The notes beneath the pieces were generated by a model. The model had not been told where the DNA came from. It worked only from the letters and a program-made list of their open reading frames with translations, and ran no database searches. DNA of 64,000 nucleotides from Methanosphaera sp. (GTDB lineage Archaea > Methanobacteriota > Methanobacteria > Methanobacteriales > Methanobacteriaceae): positions 62,001-126,000 of the forward strand of contig NZ_JALEKL010000004.1 in the NCBI RefSeq assembly GCF_022768985.1, read 5' to 3'. The position numbers were made by a program, and so were the translations under genes. Below, in pieces: positions 194-64,000 of the stretch; position 1 is the first letter of the stretch; each line of letters opens with the position of its first letter.

Positions 194-1156
194 ATGAAGC
201 CATTAGTTTCTATAATACTTCTTAACTGGAATGGATATGATGATACACTTGAAGCATTAGAGTCATTATATCAGATAAATTATCCAAATTATAATGTGAT
301 TGTTGTTGATAATGCATCAAGTAACGATTCAATAGATAAAATATTAGACTATGCAAAAGGAAATATTGAAGTACAAACTAAGTATACAAACTACATTAAA
401 GATACAAAGCCAATTGATGTTATAAGATTAGATGAAGATGAACTTAACCATAAAGTTGACTACACAACAGTTGGTGATGATAAAAAATTACTTTTAATTG
501 AAAATCATGACAACTATGGTTTTGCACGTGGAAATAACATTGCAATTGACTATACAATGAAGTATGATGAGCCTGAATATGTGCTTCTTTTAAATAATGA
601 TACAATTGTAGATCCTAACTTTCTTATTAGGATGATTGATGTTGCAACTGCTGATGAAACTATTGGTCTGCTTGGTCCTAAGTTTTATTATTATGACTAT
701 GAAGGTTCACACAATGAAATATGGTGTGTTGGAAGTGTTGTAGATCTTGATCATTACCCAGGACATCATAGTATAATGGAGGAGGAAAACTATGATTTAT
801 CACGTAGTGTTGTTGAATGTGACTGGGTTTCAGGTGCTGGTGCTTTAATTAAATCTGAGGCAATTAGTAATGGTGAATATCTTGATACTAACTTCTTCTT
901 CGGATGTGAAGATGTTGATTTAGCTGTTCGTCTTAAAGAGGCAGGATACAGTGTAGTTACTGTTATGGATTCAATAATATGGCATAAGGTTGGTATGTCA
1001 CGCCATAAGAGTTCTGTATTTAAAAGAGAAAAAAATCATATTAAGACAAATCTTGCATTTATTAAAAAGCATAAGGACGATTACTACTTAAATCTTCCAA
1101 AGTATATCTTCCAGATTGCAATGAATTATGTAAGGGCTTTGCTTAATAAATTCTAA
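194..1156 (+). CDS. Family 2 (GT-A) glycosyltransferase
   Basis: Inverting or retaining GT-A enzyme that moves a sugar from a nucleotide-sugar donor to a surface glycan; substrate unknown. The N-terminus VSIILLNWNGYDDTLEALESL and VIVVDNASSNDS (residues about 5-45) is the nucleotide-binding start of GT2 enzymes. LLLNNDTIVD near residue 130 carries the metal-binding acidic cluster, and FFGCEDVDLAVRLKEAGY near residue 235 is the usual catalytic ED region of rhamnosyltransferase-like members. At 320 residues the length is typical, with no clear membrane segment. The start ATG follows a GGTGAT ribosome binding site and lies 10 bases after the previous gene, so the two form an operon. Confidence 0.85.
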   Translation: MKPLVSIILLNWNGYDDTLEALESLYQINYPNYNVIVVDNASSNDSIDKILDYAKGNIEVQTKYTNYIKDTKPIDVIRLDEDELNHKVDYTTVGDDKKLLLIENHDNYGFARGNNIAIDYTMKYDEPEYVLLLNNDTIVDPNFLIRMIDVATADETIGLLGPKFYYYDYEGSHNEIWCVGSVVDLDHYPGHHSIMEEENYDLSRSVVECDWVSGAGALIKSEAISNGEYLDTNFFFGCEDVDLAVRLKEAGYSVVTVMDSIIWHKVGMSRHKSSVFKREKNHIKTNLAFIKKHKDDYYLNLPKYIFQIAMNYVRALLNKF

Positions 1157-1261
1157 TCTCCCTCAACTACTTTTTTTTATATTTTTATTTTATAATTTAT
1201 CATGAATTATCATACTAAATCTTGGTATTTTTCCAAAAATTTTACATAAATGTTGTGGATC

Positions 1262-7181: not shown

Positions 7182-8399
7182 TTATTCTGGAATATGTACT
7201 TCTATAACATCAAGCTGTGTGCATAATGCTTTATTACCTGTAATAGAGCTTACATTTGGCTGTGTTCGTCCATCGTCTCCAGAAATTAACTCTTTGATAT
7301 ATAATCCGCCTTGACATTTAATTTGTAATCTTAGTTTTTTAGAATTTATTCTTTCAACTTCAAGAGAATAAATACTACGTTGACGTACAAGGTCTGCACG
7401 ACGATGCATTACACGCTGTGGTGTTTGTTGATTAATAATTTCAAGTTTTTCAATCTTTGCAATATCATTACTTGTAACACCATTTTCAAATTCAGCAATG
7501 GCAGAGTAAACCTTATAGCTTTCTGTTGAACTATTTTTAACTTCAGCCTTTCTTTCTTTAGTTGTAAATTTAAGTGAATTAACAGATACAGAACCTACAT
7601 TTTCTGTATTTATACGCTCTTGTAGTTCATCAAGGTCAATTATACGATTAAATGGATGTTTTATTTCAAGTACAAATGGTCTTCCCTCACCAAGCATCAA
7701 TACATCAATATCTTCACGTCCTGATCCATGAAATTTGGATTCACTACCATTTGTCATTTCAAGTGCAGGCTTTGCAATAAGACCTTCAACTGTACGTTTA
7801 TATTGTTGTCCTGTATGATCACATGCATCACATCCATGACCTTTACACTTACTACATGGCCATTTTGTCTGTGGAATTCCACGTTCATATTTACAATATT
7901 TACCTTCAATAAAAAGTGGATTTACATCAATAAAGACACTAACTCCTGCAACTTCCTCATGAAGAGGATTATCATATGGTTTAGAACGTAGCTTTACCAT
8001 TATTACAACTTCAGGATTGTCATAGTCAATAGTTTTATTAAGTTCACTTTTTAGCATATCACACATTTCATACTTTATCTGATTTCTAAGATTGTTCTTA
8101 CCAAAGTATGGTGCTTTTTTATGTATTGCACGTTCCTGTTTGAGAATGTCATTATCACTAATTTTTGCAGCAATGAGTGCTGAATTAAATGTAACACCTA
8201 AGATTTCAATTTTATGCTTTATCATGTCAAATATCTTATCAAGATGTAACATTACATTACCACAAAGATCACATACTTCTCCTTCTTTTATAGTTGGAAT
8301 TATAGCATTTTGGCGTCTTTGCTTGTTAGGATAGATACGCTTAAGACATTTATGACAGATTTTATATTCATCTGTTTTCTGGATTTGCTGTTGTGTCAA
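7182..8399 (-). CDS. pus10: tRNA pseudouridine synthase Pus10 (positions 54/55)
   Basis: Makes pseudouridine 55, and often 54, in the T-loop of archaeal tRNAs. The N-terminal accessory domain has two zinc-binding Cys pairs, CHKCLKRI (about 15-22) and CDLCGNVM (about 43-50), and a further cluster CSKCKGHGCDACDHTG near 180. The catalytic segment GSGREDIDVLMLGEGRPFVLEI (about 222-243) holds the essential Asp. The C-terminal part with VMHRRADLVRQR is typical. At 405 residues it is normal. The start is TTG with AAGGAG nine bases upstream; no better in-frame ATG precedes the Cys cluster. The 5' flank is AT-rich and holds the promoter divergent to the giant glycosyltransferase gene. Confidence 0.95.
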   Translation of the reverse strand: MTQQQIQKTDEYKICHKCLKRIYPNKQRRQNAIIPTIKEGEVCDLCGNVMLHLDKIFDMIKHKIEILGVTFNSALIAAKISDNDILKQERAIHKKAPYFGKNNLRNQIKYEMCDMLKSELNKTIDYDNPEVVIMVKLRSKPYDNPLHEEVAGVSVFIDVNPLFIEGKYCKYERGIPQTKWPCSKCKGHGCDACDHTGQQYKRTVEGLIAKPALEMTNGSESKFHGSGREDIDVLMLGEGRPFVLEIKHPFNRIIDLDELQERINTENVGSVSVNSLKFTTKERKAEVKNSSTESYKVYSAIAEFENGVTSNDIAKIEKLEIINQQTPQRVMHRRADLVRQRSIYSLEVERINSKKLRLQIKCQGGLYIKELISGDDGRTQPNVSSITGNKALCTQLDVIEVHIPE

Positions 8400-8604: not shown

Positions 8605-11600
8605 ATGGACTCGGAGATAAATCTTGATTCATTTGATAAAAATAAGATAAAAAGAGCAAAGGAAATTATAATTGAAAATAATCTCTTTGATGATGAATAC
8701 TATGAATTAAACTATCCAAATACAATAGCTGAAGCTGATGATCTGTTAGAACACTACTTAACTGTTGGATATAAACTTGGATATGATCCATCAGAGGAAT
8801 TTAATACAAATGAATACATCAAAGAGCATGAACAACTACGTAAATACAATATAAATCCATTAATTTACTATGCAATAAATAATTTTGACAATAATGATGA
8901 TGATGGAAAATCTAGTGGAAAATCTGGTGATGATGATGTTGAATTAAAAGGTGATATAGATGATTATATTACAGATAATTCATCAATAAGAAAATATCAT
9001 GAAAGTCAGGATATATCAGAGCAAAATATGGATATTGCACAGTTAAGTGTTGATATTAATGATAAAATCAAGCAATTAAATGAAAAAAGTCAGGTTTATG
9101 TTGAAAGATTTATGCAGACAAATGAAAATGTAAAAGAAATCTATGATGAAAATACATCAAATTCAGCAATTAAAACAAATAATGAACTAACAGATGATGA
9201 TATTAAAAAGGCAAAACTATTAATTGAAGAAAACAACCTCTTTGATCCAATCTATTATAATAGTTGCTATCCACACGTATTTGAGAAGAACTCCGATCTT
9301 CTAGATCATTATCTTAATGAGGGCTATCTTAAGGGATTTAATCCATCTGAGTATTTTGATACTAATTTTTACATGCAATATGATGATGTTAAAAAAAGTG
9401 GTATGAACCCACTTATATTTTATGTATTGTATGATCTTGGATCAGAACGTAGAACTACAAATAAAGTTACACCAGATGATATACAAAAGGCAATTGATAT
9501 AATTAAAGATGAAAATCTATTTGATGAAAAATTCTACATAACACAGATTCCACAACTAAAAGATACATCACTTGATGCTTTAATGCACTATATCATTGAG
9601 GGATATAAGAATAATCTTAATCCATCAAAGAATTTTAACACACTTTTCTATAAGATGCGATATCTTGAAGGTAGTGATGATATAAATCCACTAGTTGACT
9701 ATGTATTAAATCATCATGATAATGAAACAATATTCAAACTTGGAGAATCTAAGATCAATGAATATGTAGAATTAATATATGATTCTAACAGATTTGATGA
9801 AAAATACTACAAAGATCAGACAAATCTAGATATGGGTGATAAAGCCTTAATAAAACACTACATAATAGAAGGTGAAATGCTAGGCTATAATCCAAATCAT
9901 GAATTTGACACAAAATACTACCTTGAAAATAATAGTGATGTAGTTTTAGCATCAGCAAATGCATTCTATCACTACCTGACAAAGGGAATTAGTAAAGGTA
10001 AACATCCAATAGCAACAAAAAGTGAAATTAACAAAAAACAACAACAAGAAGATGAATATAAAAGACAGGCAGAAATAATAGAAAAAAGCACACTATTTGA
10101 TAGTGAATACTACCTAAAACAGTATTCTGATGTTAAATATACAATGCAAAATCCAGCATATCATTACATATCACGAGGATATAAAGAATCTAAAAATCCA
10201 TCCAGATACTTTGATAACAACTACTACATGTATCGATATAAACATAGGCGTGGTGTTGATATAAATCCACTATATCACTACATAGTTGAGGGTGAAAATC
10301 TAGGATATGCATCAAAATACTTCTATAGTGATGTTGATAAAAAAGAGGCAGAAATAGAGATAAATACTGATATTATATCACAAAGCTATCCTAAATATGA
10401 TTCAACTGCTCCAAAAGTTTCAATTATAATACTAAATTATAATGGAGAAAAATATCTTAAAAAACTATTTGACTCAATTGATGAATCAACAAACTATCCA
10501 AACTATGAAGTTATAGTGGTAGAAAATGATTCAACAGATGATTCAATTGACATAATATGTGAATATAAAGAAAAACTAGACCTGGTTGTTCTTAAAAATA
10601 GGATTAATAAGACATATGCACAGGCATACAACGATGCAATAGAATATGCAACAGGTGAATATGTAATTTTCATGGACAATGATATAGAACTACTTGATGG
10701 ATGGCTTAATCATCTCATACAAACAGCACAAGAAAATGAAAATGTAGGAGTTGTAGGTGCAAAACTCATCTATCCTGACTGTAGTAATTCAATAAATAAC
10801 AAGGGAAAATCATACAAGCTACAACATACATCAGTAAAATTCATACAATCAGGTAAATACATACTTCCATATAATCGTGATGATGGACGGGTATACAGAT
10901 ACAATGAACATATAATAGAAGAAGTACCTGCTGTAAATGGATCATTAATGCTTATACGTCGTGATGTATTTGATGAAGTGGGAGGATTTGATGAAGAATA
11001 CATATATGGATATGAAGCTGTGGATTTATCACTTAGATTATATAAAAAAGGCTATGTAAATTATTATAATTCAAATGCAGCAGCATACCATAACAATCGT
11101 GCAACTGTTGATAATAGAATAGAAGGATTAGTAAACACACAAAAAGCATTAAATAATCAACACTTCGCAAAGAAATGGCAAAGATGGCTTAAAAAAGAAG
11201 TATTAAATGATAAGATACGATGTAATAGGTTCTTTACAGAAAAACCACTGAAATTCACCTTCATAACACTAGAAAAAGGAAAATATGCAGCAACAGGTGA
11301 ATATTTTATAGCACAAGGACTTGCCGAAGAACTAGAAAATAGGGGATATGAAGTAAATTTCATATCAAAAAGTAATGATGAAGATAAATTTAACATTGAC
11401 TGTGATGTTGATGTGATAATATCACTTGTAAATAGTTATAACATCGATAAAATCAAGGTAAAAAACAATCTTGTAATAAAAATAGCATGGATTCTTAACT
11501 GGCCTGAATGGTGGATAAATAAGTCATACTTTGAATCATATGACCTAGTATTATGTTCAAATAGTCGATCTCTTCACTATATTAATGAAAATTCAGGATA

Positions 11601-45036: not shown

Positions 45037-45181
<145 letters not shown>

Positions 45182-55483: not shown

Positions 55484-56491
55484 ATTCTTTCTTTATTTTT
55501 CCTACTTTTTCACACACCACACCTAACTTTAAAACTTATTTTTTTTTATAGACTAAATATTAATACATTTAAAAAATAGAAATGTAATATAGTTAATAAG
55601 AAAAAAACTATTTTTTTAACTTAAAATTTAATTAGCAAAAAAAAAGGATTACTAATTTTAAAATAGATATGAGGGAAATAGTTTTTTATCATTTTTTGGA
55701 AAAATATTTATTTTTTGATTTATTCATTTACATAAAATATTGGGAGGCTTTATTATATGATGTAATGACTTAATGGTGTGGGTACATCTTAAAAAAATAA
55801 CTTTTATAATCTCGTAAATTGTATTTTAAGAACATATAATTTAATATAATGTGATATTGTATATTTAAAATTAGATATTTATGTTATTGTCTATTATCCA
55901 TCTTTAAATAGTTATGTTGATGTATGTTGGAGTTATGGGTTGTTTCCTTTATGTGCTTATCAAATAAGTTAATAATTAATTAAATAGTTATATGGTGGTT
56001 ATAGCTTTGATATAGACTTAATACCATTTTTCTTTTTTTGTAAGCAATGATTAGTATGGTAATGTTGTTGGCAGACATAAATTTTTATATATTGTAGATG
56101 TTTGAGCTTAATAAAATCTCTCAATATATCTCTTTTTAAATGGTTTTATTAGTTATTTAACTAAGTATTTGGTAATAATTACTTTTGATAACATTATATT
56201 GTGCTTAATTACTAAATTCGGCTGATATATGATTATTTTGTAATTTTGTTATGTGTTTGTTAGATTTTTGTTATTGGCTCTATGGTCTTCAATAGCTAAA
56301 ATAAGTCTTTATATTGCTTGGTTGGGATTTGGATTTTGGACTTTAACATCTAACAAAATTAATACAGATCTTTATATTAATAGCTGTTCTGTTTCATTTT
56401 CACAAAAATAGGTATTATATGTATAATGTAATAATATGTTATTTTGTTATATTGATTATTTAATTATTGATTTAATGGCTTGGTTGTTGAT
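55484..56491. other. 1-kb non-coding stretch at the left border of the accessory region
   Basis: No credible gene on either strand. A GGGAGG near 55743 is followed by ATGATG and an immediate TAA (about 55758-55766), so a ribosome binding site is left without a reading frame. Two TCTTTATATT blocks (near 56309 and 56370) look like promoter elements or a short direct repeat. Base composition is slightly G/T-rich on the plus strand compared with the gene-dense chromosome to the left. It may include the left junction of an integrated element and decayed sequence. Confidence 0.45.
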
Positions 56492-58129
56492 TTAAAGGTT
56501 TGTCAGTTCTTCAAATGTTATTTCAAATCCTCGTGTATTTCCTCTGTTGGTGTGTATTGTTTTGGATGATATGTTGTCTGTTGGTATATTTATTTCGTTT
56601 AATATGGATATGTAGTCCATATTTTCACCGACTATTTGGCTGACTTCTTTTTCAAAACCTTTTTTATTTATAACAAAGGATGTATTTGTGTTTCTATAGT
56701 ATAACCAGTTAATCTCACCATTATTTGCACAGCTAATAAAGTCTCCTATTGTATAATTGATGTTATATGGTTTGTAGTGTATGGAGCTGAATAGTTTGTT
56801 TAGTCCATTTCTTATTGTTGTGCATTTGTCTTGGCTGAAATCATCTGTTGATTCTTGTATTTCGTATACTGATGGATTAAATTCTTCTTCTACATCATTG
56901 GCAATTTGTTTTAATATTTTGATTGTTAGTGTTTCTAAGTTGTTAAGTTCTTCGGATTTTGATTCAATATATGGTATTATTTTATCGGCAAATGCTCTTC
57001 CAAGATGTCTTAATGCTTTTAGGGGTGAATCTTCATACTCGGGTGAATATTTATTTTCAAATTCAATAGCTTCGTTATCAGTTACTTTCATGCTTGATGG
57101 ATAATAGCTAATATGATACCGTCGAGTTATGAAATTTTTAAATTCTTCGTATTCGTTCATTGTAAATATTGGTAATCCTAATGCCAAATAGTCTATTGTA
57201 ATTTGTGTGTTGCTTTTATCCTTTGTTGAACGGGTATCTTTGTTGTATATGCACCGTTTCATTGGGTCTTGCATATCTTCTCTAGATATTAGTGTATATG
57301 CTTCATCTATAATGGCTGGAAGTGTACTTTCTTCTAGTCTGCTTCCAAATACTGATGTGGTTGATACTGCTTTTTCTCTGTCTTGTGGTGTGGAGTATAT
57401 CCAAGAGAAGTTTAAGCAACTTCCTGTTTTGTTGGTTTTTGGAGAACCAGTTAGTATTAATCCATATAATCCTTTTGTTTTTCCTATTTCTTTTAAACAC
57501 CATGAGAATGGAGACCATAACATAAATCGCAGTAATGTGCAGTCATTGTCAATAGCTGAATCTCTTGTATTAAGTAAATCATTAATTAATTTAATACTTT
57601 CTTTAACTTGTTCTTTACTGGTTTTTAGTCCATTGATTAATGTATTTTCGATTACTTTACCATCTTTTAGGAAGAATCCTTCTTTAAATACTCGTGTTTC
57701 GGTTTGTATAAAATCTTTGCCTTTAATTTCTTTATTGTGGCAATGTATGAATATTTCGTTGATTAATTTTTTAATATCTTTTGTATCATATACAAATAGT
57801 CTTTCTGCTTCGAGTTTTTTGATTAATTCCTCAAAAGTTACATCTTCTATGCTTTTGTCTGCATCATAAAGAACATCATAGTATTTAATACTATACACTG
57901 GTTCAAATAGTTCCAATGTGTCTTTAGTTATTATTATTTGCTTGATGTATAATTTAGCAATTAACTCGTCTTCTTTTTTGCCTTTTTTAAATTTTGTTAT
58001 ATACATTCCATCTTTCTTTTGATATGTGTTTTTTGTTAAGTTGAACCGTTTAGGTTCTTCCAATTCGGATAATTTATCTGATATTGGTGTTTTATCCTTT
58101 TTATTTTTAGATTTGATATCTTTAATCAT
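56492..58129 (-). CDS. P-loop ATPase, probable replicative helicase of a mobile element
   Basis: 545 residues. Walker A-like ILTGSPKTNKTGSCL (about 228-242, with Asn where the usual Gly-Lys-Thr Gly is) and Walker B-like TLPAIIDEAYTLI (about 272) define a P-loop NTPase. The arginine-containing FITRRYHISYYPSS near 340 may be sensor or finger. The C-terminal 130 residues are winged-helix-like (NINYTIGDFISCANNGEINW). The layout recalls DUF927/D5-type primase-helicases of archaeal viruses and plasmids. GGTGAT places the start at ATG 58129. I infer replication of an integrated element; sequence alone does not prove helicase activity. Confidence 0.68.
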   Translation of the reverse strand: MIKDIKSKNKKDKTPISDKLSELEEPKRFNLTKNTYQKKDGMYITKFKKGKKEDELIAKLYIKQIIITKDTLELFEPVYSIKYYDVLYDADKSIEDVTFEELIKKLEAERLFVYDTKDIKKLINEIFIHCHNKEIKGKDFIQTETRVFKEGFFLKDGKVIENTLINGLKTSKEQVKESIKLINDLLNTRDSAIDNDCTLLRFMLWSPFSWCLKEIGKTKGLYGLILTGSPKTNKTGSCLNFSWIYSTPQDREKAVSTTSVFGSRLEESTLPAIIDEAYTLISREDMQDPMKRCIYNKDTRSTKDKSNTQITIDYLALGLPIFTMNEYEEFKNFITRRYHISYYPSSMKVTDNEAIEFENKYSPEYEDSPLKALRHLGRAFADKIIPYIESKSEELNNLETLTIKILKQIANDVEEEFNPSVYEIQESTDDFSQDKCTTIRNGLNKLFSSIHYKPYNINYTIGDFISCANNGEINWLYYRNTNTSFVINKKGFEKEVSQIVGENMDYISILNEINIPTDNISSKTIHTNRGNTRGFEITFEELTNL

Positions 58130-58141
58130 AATTATCACCAT

Positions 58142-58744
58142 TATTTTTAATTATATTTGTTCCTCGGTCAGAGTTCATAAAATTAATAAAAGAATAATGG
58201 TGTTGCAATCCTGATGGTTGTTAACAATAAATCCATATATTTATTAATGATGGGATAGAAACAGTTATTGTGGTAATAAGGTAACTGTTCTCTATGTTGT
58301 TTTTAAACTCATAGGGAGCAACACCTGAGAATTCTTTTTTTATTATAATTTAATATTGCATATTTCTCATCTTTTTATTTAGTCAGCACCAACCCTCATC
58401 GTTTAATAACATTTTGTGATTATATTTCTAAATTCTTTATTTTATAATAATCCACTCATGCCTATTTATAATTCTTATCAACATATTATATAAACCTTTT
58501 TATATATAAAAATCATTTTAAATAGCTTTATTTTAAATTTGATAGGTTATACAGTCTTTATTGAATGTCTTATTTTTGGAGCGAAAATAAGATATATAAA
58601 CTACTGGAGTTCCTTTGATTGATTGTTAAATCGAATGTTTTATACTGTTTTTTGTCAAATTTTCTTCTAAGTCTTTTGATAATATGTCAGATAATTAATT
58701 TTTCTTATTATTATACAAATGTTTAGTAGTGACTTTTTTATTTT
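58142..58744. other. Non-coding region between helicase-like gene and orphan gene, contains a structured RNA candidate
   Basis: About 600 bases without a gene. It holds the multi-helix element at 58199-58325 listed below, then a T-run, then TCAGCACCAACC at 58383-58394, which recurs inverted at 59574-59585. The remainder (58400-58744) is AT-rich with runs of TATA-like sequence near 58490-58510 and no clear coding sequence. Such a region beside a replication gene would also suit a replication origin. Confidence 0.5.
58199..58325 (+). ncRNA. Candidate structured RNA, multi-helix junction closed by an 8-bp stem
   Basis: GGTGTTGC (58199-58206) pairs with GCAACACC (58318-58325). Inside, in order: ATCCT (58208-58212) with GGGAT (58252-58256), itself enclosing AATAAAT-ccatat-ATTTATT; AACAGTTA (58260-58267) with TAACTGTT (58282-58289); TCTCTATG (58289-58296) with CATAGGGA (58310-58317). 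Two pairs are G-U on the plus strand and would be C-A mismatches on the minus strand, so the plus strand is the likely RNA. TGAGAATTC and a seven-base T-run follow directly. A TATA-like TTTAATTATATT lies about 45 bases before the first stem. No known family recognised. Confidence 0.6.
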
Positions 58745-59158
58745 TTAGTAAAATGGATGATTTTTGGCTTTTGGTGGTGTTTGTTTTTTCAATTGATTTA
58801 TTTGCTTGTCTATGGCTTGTATTATCTTTTTGATTTTGTCTTTGGTTGTTTGTGTTACTTGTATTCTGTCAATTTCGTTTACATGGATGGTTGACTCGAA
58901 AAAGTCGAGATTTAGAATGTAATCGTATTCATCATATATTTCAAAAACATAACTGTAGTATTGTCTTTCGTATTGTAGTGATTCTACTTGTCTATGTCGG
59001 AAATAATCTTTCCTATGGTCATATATGTGGTTTATTTTGTCAATTGTTGGTAGGGTAATGTAGACATTAATGTTTTCTTTTAAGTCGTTCCATTTCTCTT
59101 TATTCTTTGACTGAGGCATATTGTCTATTCTTTCTTCTAAACTTTTAGATATTCTCAT
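58745..59158 (-). CDS. Hypothetical protein of the accessory region
   Basis: 137 residues from ATG 59158, which follows AAAGGTGA; the GTG at 59167 overlaps that site. Charged, helical, no membrane segment. RISKSLEERIDNMPQ at the start and IKKIIQAIDKQINQLKKQ near the end, with a Tyr-rich centre (YERQYYSYVFEIYDEYDYIL). The start lies inside the end of the upstream RHH gene, so they are coupled; a toxin or DNA-binding partner of that gene is possible. Family unknown. Confidence 0.62.
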   Translation of the reverse strand: MRISKSLEERIDNMPQSKNKEKWNDLKENINVYITLPTIDKINHIYDHRKDYFRHRQVESLQYERQYYSYVFEIYDEYDYILNLDFFESTIHVNEIDRIQVTQTTKDKIKKIIQAIDKQINQLKKQTPPKAKNHPFY

Positions 59159-59333
59159 GATATTCACCTTTTTCTCTAATCTTTTCTCTTTTGTATTCTT
59201 CTGCTATTGCTGTGCGAATTACAGCAGTTTTGTTCAATAATTTTCTTTCTTGAAGATATGATAACATATCTTGCATTTCTTCTGTTACTCTAATACTGAA
59301 TGTATTAGTGTAACTAAGATTTGTGTTGCACAT
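59145..59333 (-). CDS. Ribbon-helix-helix DNA-binding protein
   Basis: 62 residues with the RHH layout: strand TFSIRVTEEMQDML, helix LSYLQERKLL, turn NKTAVIRTAIAEEY, then a basic tail. This is the plasmid copy-control/antitoxin type (CopG/Arc fold). It overlaps the next gene by 14 bases. Likely autorepressor or antitoxin. Confidence 0.78.
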   Translation of the reverse strand: MCNTNLSYTNTFSIRVTEEMQDMLSYLQERKLLNKTAVIRTAIAEEYKREKIREKGEYHENI

Positions 59334-60248
59334 AATACTAATTGAGTGTCTAATGTATATAAAAAATAAATTATATTCTTCTTTTTGATGTAGGACATTA
59401 TTTGGATTATTAATAATTGTTGGTAAGACATTTAGGTAATTTTTACATTGCCAAATGAAGCAGGAAAGGTCACAAACACGCTAAATATTTCAAGTCCTAA
59501 TTCTGGCGATTATCCTTCGAGCAATTAAGCAATCAAGTAATTAATTAATGATGCAATTTTTCGATTAATTATTGGTTGGTGCTGATGACCATCATATTTT
59601 AAAAGATGCTTCATCATTATGGTACTTATGATAATTGCATTGATTATTTTATAGCTACATTATATTTTAATGAAAGTAATTGTTTAATTACTTAATTATG
59701 GGTTAGTTTATGGGAAAGATAGCTTGATTTTGAACTAGTTGTCTTGGACTGTTGGTTGTAATTTTTATTGCTGATTTGGATTATTGGTTTGTTTTGTATG
59801 CCCTCGAATTGCTCAAAAAATAAGGATGGATAATACTTTATTTTGGATTTAAAGATACTGTTTTTCAGACATACAGGTGTCCCAAATCGCATGTTTCATC
59901 TTGCATATGTATATTCAGATACTTGAAGATTTGATTAATTATTTTGATTACATGTAATTACATGTAATTTTTATAATAGTTACATGTAATTTAATGTAAG
60001 TAATTTTTTAACGATTTGTTGATTTTGGATTTTTTGCCGAAAAGGAGCAATCAATTATGTTTCACATCGTGTATCTGTTATTGCACACAAACATTCTGGT
60101 GTTAGATTATGTATGACTTCGCAGATCTTGGCTATCACATGGGGCAACATGGTATTATAGGTGATGAGTAAAAAATGTAACAATCAAAATTTAATATGGT
60201 TGCTTCTAATATTATTATATAGTATGTTTTGCTGTTGTGAGTATTATG
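59334..60248. other. 0.9-kb non-coding region with palindrome array and relic-like fragments
   Basis: No full gene. ATGCAATT (59551-59558) and AATTGCAT (59633-59640) frame a segment that includes the inverted copy of CAGCACCAACC (59574-59584). Around 59430-59527 a stop-bounded frame reads LPNEAGKVTNTLNISSPNS, compositionally unlike the AT-rich flanks and perhaps the remnant of a surface protein. Around 60030-60164 another short open frame without a start reads RVSVIAHKHSGVRLCMTSQI. A cluster of TTACATGTAA palindromes at 59947-59990 is listed separately. Confidence 0.45.
59947..59990. repeat. Array of TTACATGTAA palindromes
   Basis: ATTACATGTAAT occurs at 59947-59958 and 59957-59968, sharing two bases, and GTTACATGTAAT at 59979-59990. 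A fourth degenerate copy TTAATGTAA follows at 59991-59999. The first two are centred ten bases apart and the third 22 bases further on, that is, about one and two helical turns, which suits cooperative dimer binding. They lie 260 bases before a small coiled-coil gene and 670 bases before the cytosine methylase. Confidence 0.7.
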
Positions 60249-60542
60249 ATGGAAAAGGAAATTAAAGCTTATGGTGATAGGAAAGATACAATTATTAGAT
60301 TTGTTAAAAAGGATAATGTCAAGTTAGGTAAAGTTTATGTTTTGTATCCAAGTGAGTATGATGATATGAGAGCTAAAATAGCTGAGTTGGAATTAGAATT
60401 AGCTATACAAAAAAGTAAAAATAAAAATTTAAGAGAAGAATTAAGTTCTAAAAATACTGGTTCAGATTTGTCTGCGATATTGGATAAATTAGATGATATT
60501 AATGATAAGATTAGAAGCTTAGAATCTAAAATAAGTAGTTAA
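60249..60542 (+). CDS. Small coiled-coil protein of the accessory region
   Basis: 97 residues from ATG 60249; GTG 60237 and ATG 60246 are alternatives and the start is uncertain. The first 40 residues (EKEIKAYGDRKDTIIRFVKK, KVYVLYPSEYDDM) look like a small beta domain of the swapped-hairpin or transposon-associated type; the rest is a coiled coil (AKIAELELELAIQKSKNKNL, LDKLDDINDKIRSLESKI). Possibly the DNA-binding regulator for the palindromes upstream. Precedes the methylase by 124 bases on the same strand. Confidence 0.62.
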   Translation: MEKEIKAYGDRKDTIIRFVKKDNVKLGKVYVLYPSEYDDMRAKIAELELELAIQKSKNKNLREELSSKNTGSDLSAILDKLDDINDKIRSLESKISS

Positions 60543-60666
60543 TTGTAACTATGGTTGAAAATCTTTCTATTTTGGGTGTTGATAGGTATATCTGAAAATT
60601 ATTTATAGATTGAAGTATAAACTTATTTTTATATTTTGCTGATAAATATTGGAGATTGAGTAGATA

Positions 60667-61899
60667 ATGAGTGATAATTATACTGTAGTTTCTTTGTTTT
60701 GTGGTGCTGGAGGAATGGATTTAGGATTTAAACAAGCTGGTTTTAATATTTTATGGGCAAATGATTTTGATGAAGATGCTACTATTACATATAAGAATAA
60801 TATTGGGAATCATGTAGTCTTAGGGGATATATGTCAAATTGATAGTGGTGAAATTCCGAATAATCCTGATGTTATAATTGGAGGATTTCCATGTCAAGGG
60901 TTTTCAGTAGCTAACACTAAGCGAAATATGGATGATGAGCGAAATTTTTTATATAAAGAAATGCTTAGAATTATTGATGATAAGAAACCTAAAATATTTG
61001 TTGCCGAAAATGTTAAAGGACTTCTTTCAATGGAAAAAGGCAAAGTTATTGATATGATTGTCAAAGATTTCGAAAAAATTGGTTATTCTGTTAATTATGA
61101 AGTTCTTAATTCAGTTGATTATGGTGTTCCTCAAACAAGACAAAGAGTTATTATTATTGGTAATCGAATTGGTGTAGATAATATTTATCCAGATAAAACT
61201 CATTTCTTAAAAGATAAAAAACAACAAACTTTAATTAGTTCTAATAATGGATTAAAACCTTATGTAACTACTAAAGAAGCTATTGGATTTTTGAGTGATG
61301 TTAAAATTACTAATAATGAGCTTTTGGTTGGGGGTAGAGAAATTCACAATCATATTGCTTCAACTAATGTTTCAGATAAATTTTGGGCTAGAAAACATGA
61401 TGTAGACCAAGCACAAATTTGTGATTATCTTAGGGGTTGGAGAGATTCATCAGAATGGACTACCAAGAAAATTGATGAACATTTTGGTTATAAACATACT
61501 GCTGGGCATTGGTTTAGAAAAGATAATAATTCTGGTTCAATTCCAAATCCCGATGATTGGTGGGAACTTAAAAGGATACTAAATTTTGATGACAAATATG
61601 ATAAACAAGTCACTGAACTTATAGAAAAGGAAATTGTTTTTGAACAATCTTTAAGAATTACTAATTGGGATAAGCCTAGTGATACTATTACAGCTACAAG
61701 TCCAGAGATTCATGTAAATAAAAAAAGAAGATTGTCTGTTAGAGAATGTGCTATTCTACAAACTTTTCCAGATGATTTTATTTTTTATGGAAGTTTAAGT
61801 TCAATGTATAGGCAGGTAGGAAATGCCGTACCAGTTTTACTTGCAAAAAAAATAGGAGAATGTGTTATTAAAATGTTAAACCAATATGTTGGTGATTAA
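60667..61899 (+). CDS. DNA (cytosine-5) methyltransferase, second restriction-modification system
   Basis: 410 residues. Motif I SLFCGAGGMDLGFKQAG, motif IV GGFPCQGFSVANT with the catalytic Cys, motif VI VAENVKGLLSMEKG, motif VIII VPQTRQRVIIIGNR, motif X QVGNAVPVLLAKKIGE. The long target-recognition part (about 200-330) contains DYLRGWRDSSEWTTKKIDE and WFRKDNNSGSIPNPDDWWEL. Different in length and recognition region from the methylase at 35.7 kb, so its site differs. It abuts the next gene as TAAATG. GGAG precedes the ATG. Confidence 0.95.
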   Translation: MSDNYTVVSLFCGAGGMDLGFKQAGFNILWANDFDEDATITYKNNIGNHVVLGDICQIDSGEIPNNPDVIIGGFPCQGFSVANTKRNMDDERNFLYKEMLRIIDDKKPKIFVAENVKGLLSMEKGKVIDMIVKDFEKIGYSVNYEVLNSVDYGVPQTRQRVIIIGNRIGVDNIYPDKTHFLKDKKQQTLISSNNGLKPYVTTKEAIGFLSDVKITNNELLVGGREIHNHIASTNVSDKFWARKHDVDQAQICDYLRGWRDSSEWTTKKIDEHFGYKHTAGHWFRKDNNSGSIPNPDDWWELKRILNFDDKYDKQVTELIEKEIVFEQSLRITNWDKPSDTITATSPEIHVNKKRRLSVRECAILQTFPDDFIFYGSLSSMYRQVGNAVPVLLAKKIGECVIKMLNQYVGD

Positions 61900-62640
61900 A
61901 TGGAACATAAGGAAATTGAATTTTGGGAACATGAATATCTGAAACAAATATATTATTTATTAAATATAGATAAACAGAAAATGTTAGATGGTTTCAATAC
62001 TAAAGAAGATATTAGAAAAGATTGGCAAGATTTTTTAGGAAAAGAAACTTCTGACTTTGCTACAGGTTCAGAAAGAATTTTTTACTGGTTATTTAATCAA
62101 TTTGGAGTGCCAAATTCATCACCTATTGGTTCTGATATGTTTTTTGAGACATATAATGCTTATGTGCATATAGATATTAAAACGGTTACTAAAAAGAATA
62201 TTGGCGATATAACTAAAAATATATTTGTTGGTGACAATCAAAATAGTTATATTGGGCATGTTAAAACAAGAACCTATGATGATAAGTATAAAGGTAATCT
62301 ACCTACTTTTTACCATAAAGAAAATGGCGAAGTAAAAATATGTTTAACATATTTTATTTGTATTTTGTATAATGAAGAGAATTTGGACATTCAAACTATT
62401 ATTATTACTTGCATGCCTAATGGAGAATTATCTGAGTTTTATGAGCCAGATACTCTTAATGCTGGTAAAAATAGAGGCAAAGTCCGATATAATTATTCTA
62501 AATGCAAATATTTTAGATTATTAGATGACCAACCATTAAGAACTAAAGTTTTAATTTGGTCTCCAGAGAGTGATGATGTTAAAAAAAGACTTAGTGAGAT
62601 TGAATCTATTTATTTAGAACAAGAGGAATCTAATTTATAA
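61900..62640 (+). CDS. Probable type II restriction endonuclease, partner of the preceding methylase
   Basis: 246 residues, no family recognised with confidence. SSPIGSDMFFETYNAYVHIDIKTVTKKN (about 78-105; key pieces GSDMFFE and HIDIKT) has the spacing of a PD-(D/E)xK nuclease: acidic Asp, then a strand D-x-K. Residue HIDIKT is the most likely catalytic strand. The ATG is directly behind the methylase stop with GGTGATT as its ribosome binding site, so expression is coupled. Methylase first, unlike the system at 36 kb. Restriction role inferred from context. Confidence 0.7.
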   Translation: MEHKEIEFWEHEYLKQIYYLLNIDKQKMLDGFNTKEDIRKDWQDFLGKETSDFATGSERIFYWLFNQFGVPNSSPIGSDMFFETYNAYVHIDIKTVTKKNIGDITKNIFVGDNQNSYIGHVKTRTYDDKYKGNLPTFYHKENGEVKICLTYFICILYNEENLDIQTIIITCMPNGELSEFYEPDTLNAGKNRGKVRYNYSKCKYFRLLDDQPLRTKVLIWSPESDDVKKRLSEIESIYLEQEESNL

Positions 62641-62700
62641 TAATGTTAAATTTAGTATGGGTTTAAAATATCCTCATATATTTAGGAAATTATGATAGGA

Positions 62701-63123
62701 TTAATGATATTGTTCATTAATCCAAGATTCAAACTCTATTAAAGCACCACTTGTTAGATTATGTGTGTCTTTAACAATAGCTATGCATGATGTTATAATC
62801 TCATAATCTACATCATCTATTTCACCAAAATACTTTTTAAGATTATTTAACTTTTCTATGTCTGATAATTCGGAATCAAATAACATTGATTCTATAAAAG
62901 GCACATATTTATGAAGTATTGTTGGACTAGCTAACTCATCATCTTTTAATAATAATTTAGTCAATACTTCTTTATCAAAATGCAACCTATGATTTTCTAA
63001 GAACAATCTTTTATTTTCTCGTATTAATCTTTCTATTGTGACATTGTATGTTTCTTTATCGTATGCAATATCATCTAATTCAGATTTTACCTTTTCAGTT
63101 ACTTTAATATTCTTCAAATCCAT
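62701..63123 (-). CDS. Hypothetical protein with VapB/RHH-like N-terminus
   Basis: 140 residues. KNIKVTEKVKSELDDIAYDK and ETYNVTIERLIRENKRL (about 3-40) resemble the archaeal VapB-type antitoxin or RHH N-terminus. The remaining 100 residues are helical (EVLTKLLLKDDELASPTILH, IEKLNNLKKYFGEIDD) and not recognised. GGAGATG precedes the ATG. A perfect 11-base-arm palindrome lies about 100 bases upstream and may be its operator. Confidence 0.62.
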   Translation of the reverse strand: MDLKNIKVTEKVKSELDDIAYDKETYNVTIERLIRENKRLFLENHRLHFDKEVLTKLLLKDDELASPTILHKYVPFIESMLFDSELSDIEKLNNLKKYFGEIDDVDYEIITSCIAIVKDTHNLTSGALIEFESWINEQYH

Positions 63124-63219
63124 AATTACATCTCCTAATAGTTATGATAATTGGAACAATTTGCATGTTCATTATTTGGCTTGTTGTTCTCTTTATTATA
63201 ATATTGGGGTGAGTAATAT

Positions 63220-63244
63220 ATAAGTATCTTATTAAGATACTTAT
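63220..63244. promoter_or_regulatory. Perfect 11-bp palindrome between two minus-strand genes
   Basis: ATAAGTATCTT-ATT-AAGATACTTAT, perfect arms of 11 bases around three bases. It is 15 bases behind the stop of the gene at 63260 and 97 bases before the start of the gene at 63123. It can be the 3' hairpin of the first or the operator of the second. There is no T-run on the minus strand, which favours the operator reading. Confidence 0.6.
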
Positions 63245-63259
63245 AGGATATGTTGTTGT

Positions 63260-64000
63260 CTAGTTATATTCAACATCATCATAGTACATTGCCTCTTTTA
63301 TTATATCAATAGCTAACTCATCATTGATTTTTGATTTGGCATACTTCTCTTGGTGGTCAAAAAGGTATCCTAAGAGTTTATCTCCTTGATTTTCACCACC
63401 AATAACATCTAACAATTCATTTTTATCAATAAAATCCATAACATATGTCCAAATATTTTGTAGGTGTTTAATAATTTTACCATTATCTTTTAATTCTTCT
63501 TCTAATCTTTCTTTTAATTTTTTATCTATTTTAAGCTCGAATTTAGCTTTTCCTATTAATTCTTTGATTCCATTTCCATCATCATACATTTTTTCATGTT
63601 CTAATGCAATTGCAGTGGATAGTTCTGTTATTATTGCTATATCCTCATGATTTATCTTTAATGTCTCCTTATTTTTATGTATGTATTCATTTATTTTATC
63701 TCTAATAGTATTTGTATTTAAATCATTAAAACCTAAATTTTCCAATATGTCTTTCTTAACATCTTTAATTTTTGTATCAACATCTTTTTCAATTTCTTCA
63801 GTTCTATTTCGTAATTCTTTAACTTCATTATTTAATCGCTCATTTTCTGTATTTAAATCTGTAATCTTATCAGTTTTTTCTTTTATTTCATTAGTTAATT
63901 TTGCATATGTTTCATCTGTTACAAAATTAACACGATATTGTTCGTATATTGTAAGTTCATCTAACCACCTTAGGTAATGTTGATTAATCTTGTGAGGGTC
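63260..64000 (-). CDS. Coiled-coil protein, possibly the C-terminal part of a tyrosine recombinase (partial at window end)
   Basis: The minus-strand frame is open from the window edge to TAG at 63260-63262, at least 246 residues, with no need for the internal TTG at 63745. The first visible part reads PHKINQHYLRWLDELTIYEQ then VNFVTDETYAKLTNEIKE. In archaeal integrases the nucleophilic Tyr is followed by such a P...YL...LTI...VTDExY tail, so I suspect an integrase. Then comes a long coiled coil (about 40-90), and a helical C-terminus (ELIGKAKFELKIDKKLKERL; SKINDELAIDIIKEAMYYDD). The catalytic domain would be outside the window. Family uncertain. Confidence 0.55.
   Translation of the reverse strand, partial: DPHKINQHYLRWLDELTIYEQYRVNFVTDETYAKLTNEIKEKTDKITDLNTENERLNNEVKELRNRTEEIEKDVDTKIKDVKKDILENLGFNDLNTNTIRDKINEYIHKNKETLKINHEDIAIITELSTAIALEHEKMYDDGNGIKELIGKAKFELKIDKKLKERLEEELKDNGKIIKHLQNIWTYVMDFIDKNELLDVIGGENQGDKLLGYLFDHQEKYAKSKINDELAIDIIKEAMYYDDVEYN

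Follow-up and report, generated by a model that had tools for sequence, protein, structure and literature searches.

A DNA stem-loop beside the replication helicase gene of a Methanosphaera plasmid-like element: a possible pRN1-like origin

Introduction

Does a strongly folded intergenic segment beside a replication gene of Methanosphaera sp. give rise to an RNA, or is it a structure of the DNA itself? The question is raised by positions 58199-58325 of a 64,000-nt window, by which we mean the whole stretch of DNA analyzed here (assembly GCF_022768985.1, contig NZ_JALEKL010000004.1, positions 62,001-126,000, forward strand). A first-pass annotation, made from the letters alone, had drawn this segment as a compact junction of separate hairpins and taken it for a plus-strand RNA of an accessory element, possibly one with a part in replication or copy control. 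Few replication origins have been mapped well in the plasmids and viruses of methanogens. In the Sulfolobus plasmids pRN1 and pRN2 a stem-loop is the putative origin (Berkner, 2014, PMC4234260; Joshua, 2013, PMC3869888); that of pRN1, 100 bp long and adjacent to its prim-pol/helicase gene, is needed for replication and stays functional after relocation, and the family keeps its structure rather than its sequence (PMC4234260; PMC3869888).

The Fold and its Extent

The segment is single-copy in its own genome and its fold is genuine. As RNA, the plus strand reaches a minimum free energy of -39.9 kcal/mol (z -4.72, with 0 of 200 shuffles as good) and the minus strand -29.4 kcal/mol (z -3.76). The domain is also bigger than the segment first marked, since under DNA parameters the closed domain comprises 172 nt, 58180-58351 (z -4.87 on the plus and -4.68 on the minus strand), and a DNA energy scan ranks it as the top closed domain of 55500-63500 on either strand; a scan with 120-nt windows was too short, cut off the closing stem and missed the element. 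Energy alone is not decisive, because single shuffles of the whole 8 kb fell at most 0.2 kcal/mol short of the domain on the plus strand and went 0.6 kcal/mol beyond it on the minus strand, and it is the homologues and the placement that decide.

The best RNA fold is a long interrupted stem with a pair of inner hairpins, 4.2 kcal/mol better than the junction first drawn, whose third hairpin, if forced, costs the homologues 6-14 kcal/mol. The strong fold is confirmed, and the arrangement of separate hairpins is corrected. The closing stem P1 had been read correctly as eight perfect base pairs (GGTGTTGC/GCAACACC). On the other hand, the T-run reported to follow the structure belongs for the most part to the 3′ arm of an outer stem, P0, whose upstream partner within the domain is AATAAAAGAAT. 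All parts are listed in Table 1.

Table 1. Coordinates of the stem-loop, of its neighbors and of comparable structures in other elements (window positions unless another contig is named; a point marks unstranded features).
Feature	Position	Strand	Remarks
Whole stem-loop domain	58180..58351	.	putative DNA origin/control element
Outer stem P0, 5′ arm	58180..58195	.	A-rich flank; pairs with the T-run
Outer stem P0, 3′ arm	58331..58351	.	takes in the T-run; DNA fold
Closing stem P1, 5′ arm	58199..58206	.	8/8 pairs with 58318-58325
Closing stem P1, 3′ arm	58318..58325	.	partner of 58199-58206
Middle stem P2, 5′ arm (TCCTGATGGTT)	58209..58219	.	pairs with 58306-58317
Middle stem P2, 3′ arm (AACTCATAGGGA)	58306..58317	.	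partner of 58209-58219
TATA-like core ATATTTAT	58237..58244	.	identical in all four homologues; possibly the rep promoter
Inner dyad P5, arm AACAGTTA	58260..58267	.	partner of 58282-58289; 94% of cells paired over the four homologues
Inner dyad P5, arm TAACTGTT	58282..58289	.	partner of 58260-58267
Replication helicase gene (rep), 545 aa	56492..58129	-	relatives 34-73% identical; hhalign match to ORF909 of HAV2 (helicase half)
Small gene, about 138-140 aa, between RHH gene and stem-loop	58745..59158	-	syntenic with genes of 129-160 aa
Ribbon-helix-helix (RHH) repressor-like gene, 62 aa	59145..59333	-	41-58% identity in five elements; PHROG transcriptional repressor
Conserved block 5′ of RHH gene	59410-59480	-	L051 ~11090-11160; L052 ~8640-8710
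Cytosine-5 DNA methyltransferase	60667-61899		carried inside element
Putative restriction partner of methyltransferase	61900-62640		weak SfiI-like match
Tyrosine recombinase/integrase, 688 aa	63260..64000	-	continues to 65326 beyond window; weak Phage_int_SAM_4 match
Stem-loop, G026 (199 nt)	971-1169		47 nt upstream of rep; -31 vs -19 in shuffles
Stem-loop, virus contig L109	5341-5480		closing stem around inner hairpins, 29 nt 5′ of rep
Stem-loop, virus contig L109	7694-7908		directly 3′ of rep
Further stem-loop, virus contig L109	4511-4714
Stem-loop, L110	12011-12224		directly 3′ of rep
Stem-loop, L115	10178-10363		directly 3′ of rep
Stem-loop, vir080	7210-7408		directly 3′ of rep

The Rep Protein and its Element

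The domain lies 51 nt upstream of the start of rep, and reads away from this minus-strand gene, as the divergent orientation to a helicase-like gene had been described. A restriction-modification pair and a tyrosine recombinase stand nearby, together with the genes for Rep and the RHH protein, and we therefore regard the locus as a plasmid-like element integrated in the chromosome of this gut methanogen; no direct repeats of at least 13 nt were found at its ends, and its exact ends were not located.

Neither Pfam (above cut-off) nor PHROG matched the Rep family, and AlphaFold2 returned a poor ATPase core (mean pLDDT 60), so a profile comparison with Hyperthermophilic Archaeal Virus 2 (HAV2) was used in place of a structure-based fold search. 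In hhalign the family aligned to residues 459-907 of HAV2 ORF909 at 99.5% (E 4e-23). The N-terminus of ORF909 is a Prim-Pol, whereas the window Rep is without a prim-pol domain, and by these profiles it is the helicase half of a HAV2-type primase-polymerase/helicase. Against prim-pol Reps, profile comparison aligned only the Walker A region. A Rep copy of the window type in Methanobrevibacter RUG012 (L029/L032/L054) is a pseudogene with four in-frame stops, and no clear homologue of the stem-loop was found at that locus.

Homologues of the Stem-Loop

Three homologues were identified in two Methanobrevibacter genomes: one from goat (G050 contig 56), first spotted by eye, one in G085, and one in G050 contig 158. 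A model built from the window element alone scored the goat homologue and added the other two at weak E-values; these two were accepted after their aligned motifs had been inspected. A second model, built from all four sequences, recovers all four at E ≤ 2e-17, necessarily so as they are its own training set; its inner helix is one column out of register, and its matches rest on sequence. Over 151 genomes of the order it found nothing else convincing, three further matches at E 0.1-0.4 being treated as chance, and BLAST of the element against 139 genomes of the family gave, besides itself, mostly short AT-rich chance matches. Matches of the single-sequence model in G053, G092, G080 and G083 were rejected because the conserved P1, P5 and core motifs are missing, and one in L070 (2323-2441) because it falls inside a rep coding sequence.

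The gene order is the same in all four loci: RHH gene, small gene or genes, element and rep, and each time the element and rep point in opposite directions. For the small genes, homology is unproven because MAFFT identity is only 20-25%. The RHH proteins are 41-58% identical despite two kinds of Rep, either HAV2-type helicases of about 545 aa or 1051-aa prim-pol/DUF5906 proteins like pRN1 ORF904; those of G085 and G050 contig 158 are of this ORF904-like kind (prim-pol and SF3 helicase).

Conserved in sequence are the GGTG/CACC arms, the core ATATTTAT and the dyad AACAGTTA/TAACTGTT; the outer arms are kept too, and P1 has seven pairs and one bulge in the goat homologue and 6/8 pairs in that of G085. 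P2, on the contrary, has been swapped three ways and is complementary each time: TCCT-ATG-GTT/AAC-CAT-GGGA in the window, TCCATGC/GCATGGA in goat and AGCAGAAA/TTTCTGCT in G085. Homologues whose stems differ and yet stay complementary, such as the first-pass annotation had asked for, do exist; a formal test of covariation would need more than these four sequences. Neither the G085 nor the goat segment ranks as the top structure of its own locus.

Stem-Loops Beside rep in Related Elements

Further elements with related Reps were gathered by profile search; single-sequence Rep searches of plasmids and viral contigs gave nothing, and the virus contig L109 was found by alignment only. Of 12 loci, 8 have their top both-strand stem-loop no more than 400 nt from rep (P 4e-6 against length), a number that becomes 9 when intergenic positions are counted (P 4e-4); without the window, pRN1 and pRN2 it is 6 of 9 (P 8e-5 by length, 0.012 by intergenic positions), all of these P values being indicative because the 400-nt cut-off was set after most loci had been seen. 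The side varies: the structure is 5′ of rep in the window, goat, G026 and L109, and 3′ in L110, L115 and vir080. When the identical scan was applied to the reference plasmids, the pRN1 origin ranked first and that of pRN2 first or second. Three large stem-loops surround one RHH-rep operon on L109, a viral contig that includes a terminase-like gene.

Origin, Operator or RNA

The both-strand fold, its fixed place beside rep in the homologues, the replacement of P2 with pairing kept, and the same habit in related elements lead us to favor, with guarded confidence, a pRN1-like DNA stem-loop origin of an integrated plasmid, overlapping the rep promoter. Positions 58199-58325 would then form the apical portion of a DNA stem-loop of roughly 170 bp. 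The conserved P5 dyad and the TATA-like core are also compatible with an operator and promoter, and the main alternative builds on them: the AACAGTTA/TAACTGTT dyad and the GGTGTTGC/GCAACACC arms would bind the RHH protein, or the small protein, around the TATA box of rep, and the hairpin would be a by-product of nested dyads. The dyad and the TATA-like core are indeed the best conserved parts, and they are so in elements that have the RHH gene in common but differ in Rep type; however, P2 has changed its sequence wholly and is still complementary, and a 9-mer comparison found the dyad nowhere upstream of the RHH gene. A pure operator would explain the dyad and the core and not the swapped yet complementary P2, and we consider it unlikely as the whole account.

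Could the element instead be transcribed from the plus strand, as a counter-transcribed or other RNA controlling rep? Countertranscripts occur in pRN1, the plus strand folds strongly, and the best folds hold six G-U pairs on the plus strand against one on the minus in the window and four against one in goat, G-U pairs being what the first-pass annotation had argued from. However, in dinucleotide shuffles of the same sequence G-U pairs are in excess by 4.2 ± 2.4 and E(+)-E(-) comes to -7.1 ± 3.4 kcal/mol, and the observed values of 5 and -10.5 kcal/mol both lie within about one standard deviation of these; in addition, G-U pairs are neutral in G085 and lean the opposite way in L109 and L115. 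The G-U argument fails, because sequences of the same composition show the same strand bias and other elements are neutral or opposite. The T-tract after the stem, present in the window and goat, is missing in the homologues of G085 and G050 contig 158, and no terminator-like site was found, the T-run not being one. Rfam covariance models gave nothing above the gathering threshold on 58199-58325 and chance matches only below it, in agreement with the earlier statement that no known RNA family fits. With no strand preference beyond composition, no terminator, a T-run that is a stem arm, and nearest characterized counterparts that are DNA origins, the plus-strand RNA is unsupported and we hold it to be doubtful; the suspected link of the accessory element to replication or copy control is supported. 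Likewise doubtful is a new family of structured plus-strand RNAs, encoded in Methanobacteriales plasmids in the interval that separates rep from the RHH-led genes and controlling rep expression or priming replication. That the minus strand, which also folds and lies directly upstream of the gene, gives rep a structured 5′ leader is highly improbable, as the sense fold is the weaker one in the window and goat, and with the TATA-like core as rep promoter the transcript would start inside the element and therefore could not hold the fold.

In the DNA origin reading, the Rep helicase of the excised element would assemble at the stem-loop and extrude or melt it, and a primase would start synthesis on the exposed single strands. 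This primase would presumably be the host's, since the window Rep keeps only the helicase half. The RHH protein may repress the operon, with the rep promoter placed at the ATATTTAT core inside the stem-loop.

Comparison with Known Origins

The element shares with pRN1 and pRN2 a DNA stem-loop of about 100-170 bp adjoining the replication gene. Its module has an RHH gene, putatively a copy-control gene as in those plasmids; the gene is syntenic, and its similarity to CopG/ORF56 is not significant. The likeness in mode of conservation is partial, as over four sequences P2 changes with pairing kept, whereas P5 and the core retain their sequence. Unlike pRN1, whose stem-loop lies 3′ of rep, that of the window lies 5′; its stem is interrupted, whereas pRN1 stems are longer and perfect; its Rep is a helicase only, of HAV2 type, where that of pRN1 joins prim-pol and SF3 helicase; its host is a euryarchaeal methanogen; and it contains a TATA-like core. 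We do not file it as a pRN1-type member, because of its position 5′ of rep and a Rep without a primase domain. HAV2, to which the Rep is matched, also has a stem-loop (2797-2962), lying 3′ of ORF909, but its ORF909 has a Prim-Pol and the structure is not the top one in its genome stretch. The betapleolipovirus SNJ2 (Rep-Arvir, PMC13107129) likewise has a DNA hairpin origin adjoining rep in an archaeal integrated element; however, that hairpin is short and contains a proposed nick site for a rolling-circle endonuclease, and no such endonuclease was seen in the window element.

In gut and rumen Methanobacteriales elements a layout recurs that combines an RHH gene, a Rep (helicase or primase-helicase) and a large stem-loop in contact with rep; it resembles that of the stem-loop origin defined by deletion in Sulfolobus pRN1. 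If our reading is right, stem-loop origins would extend to euryarchaea and to Reps that have no primase of their own, and the 172-bp segment would be the first cloning candidate for a Methanosphaera/Methanobrevibacter shuttle vector.

Other Observations

Upstream of the RHH gene, a noncoding block (GACCTTTCC..CTTCATTT..AAATTACCTA..AATGTCTTAC) was recognized by eye as common to the window and the elements of G085 and G050 contig 158; it may be the promoter/operator of the RHH gene or a second site of replication. Exact inverted 12-nt copies, TCAGCACCAACC and GGTTGGTGCTGA, flank the pair of RHH and small genes in the window (~58380-58391 and 59583-59594), and TTCAGCACC also occurs upstream of the RHH gene in G085. 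Elsewhere in the window, a 145-nt tRNA match at 45037-45181 probably contains an intron.
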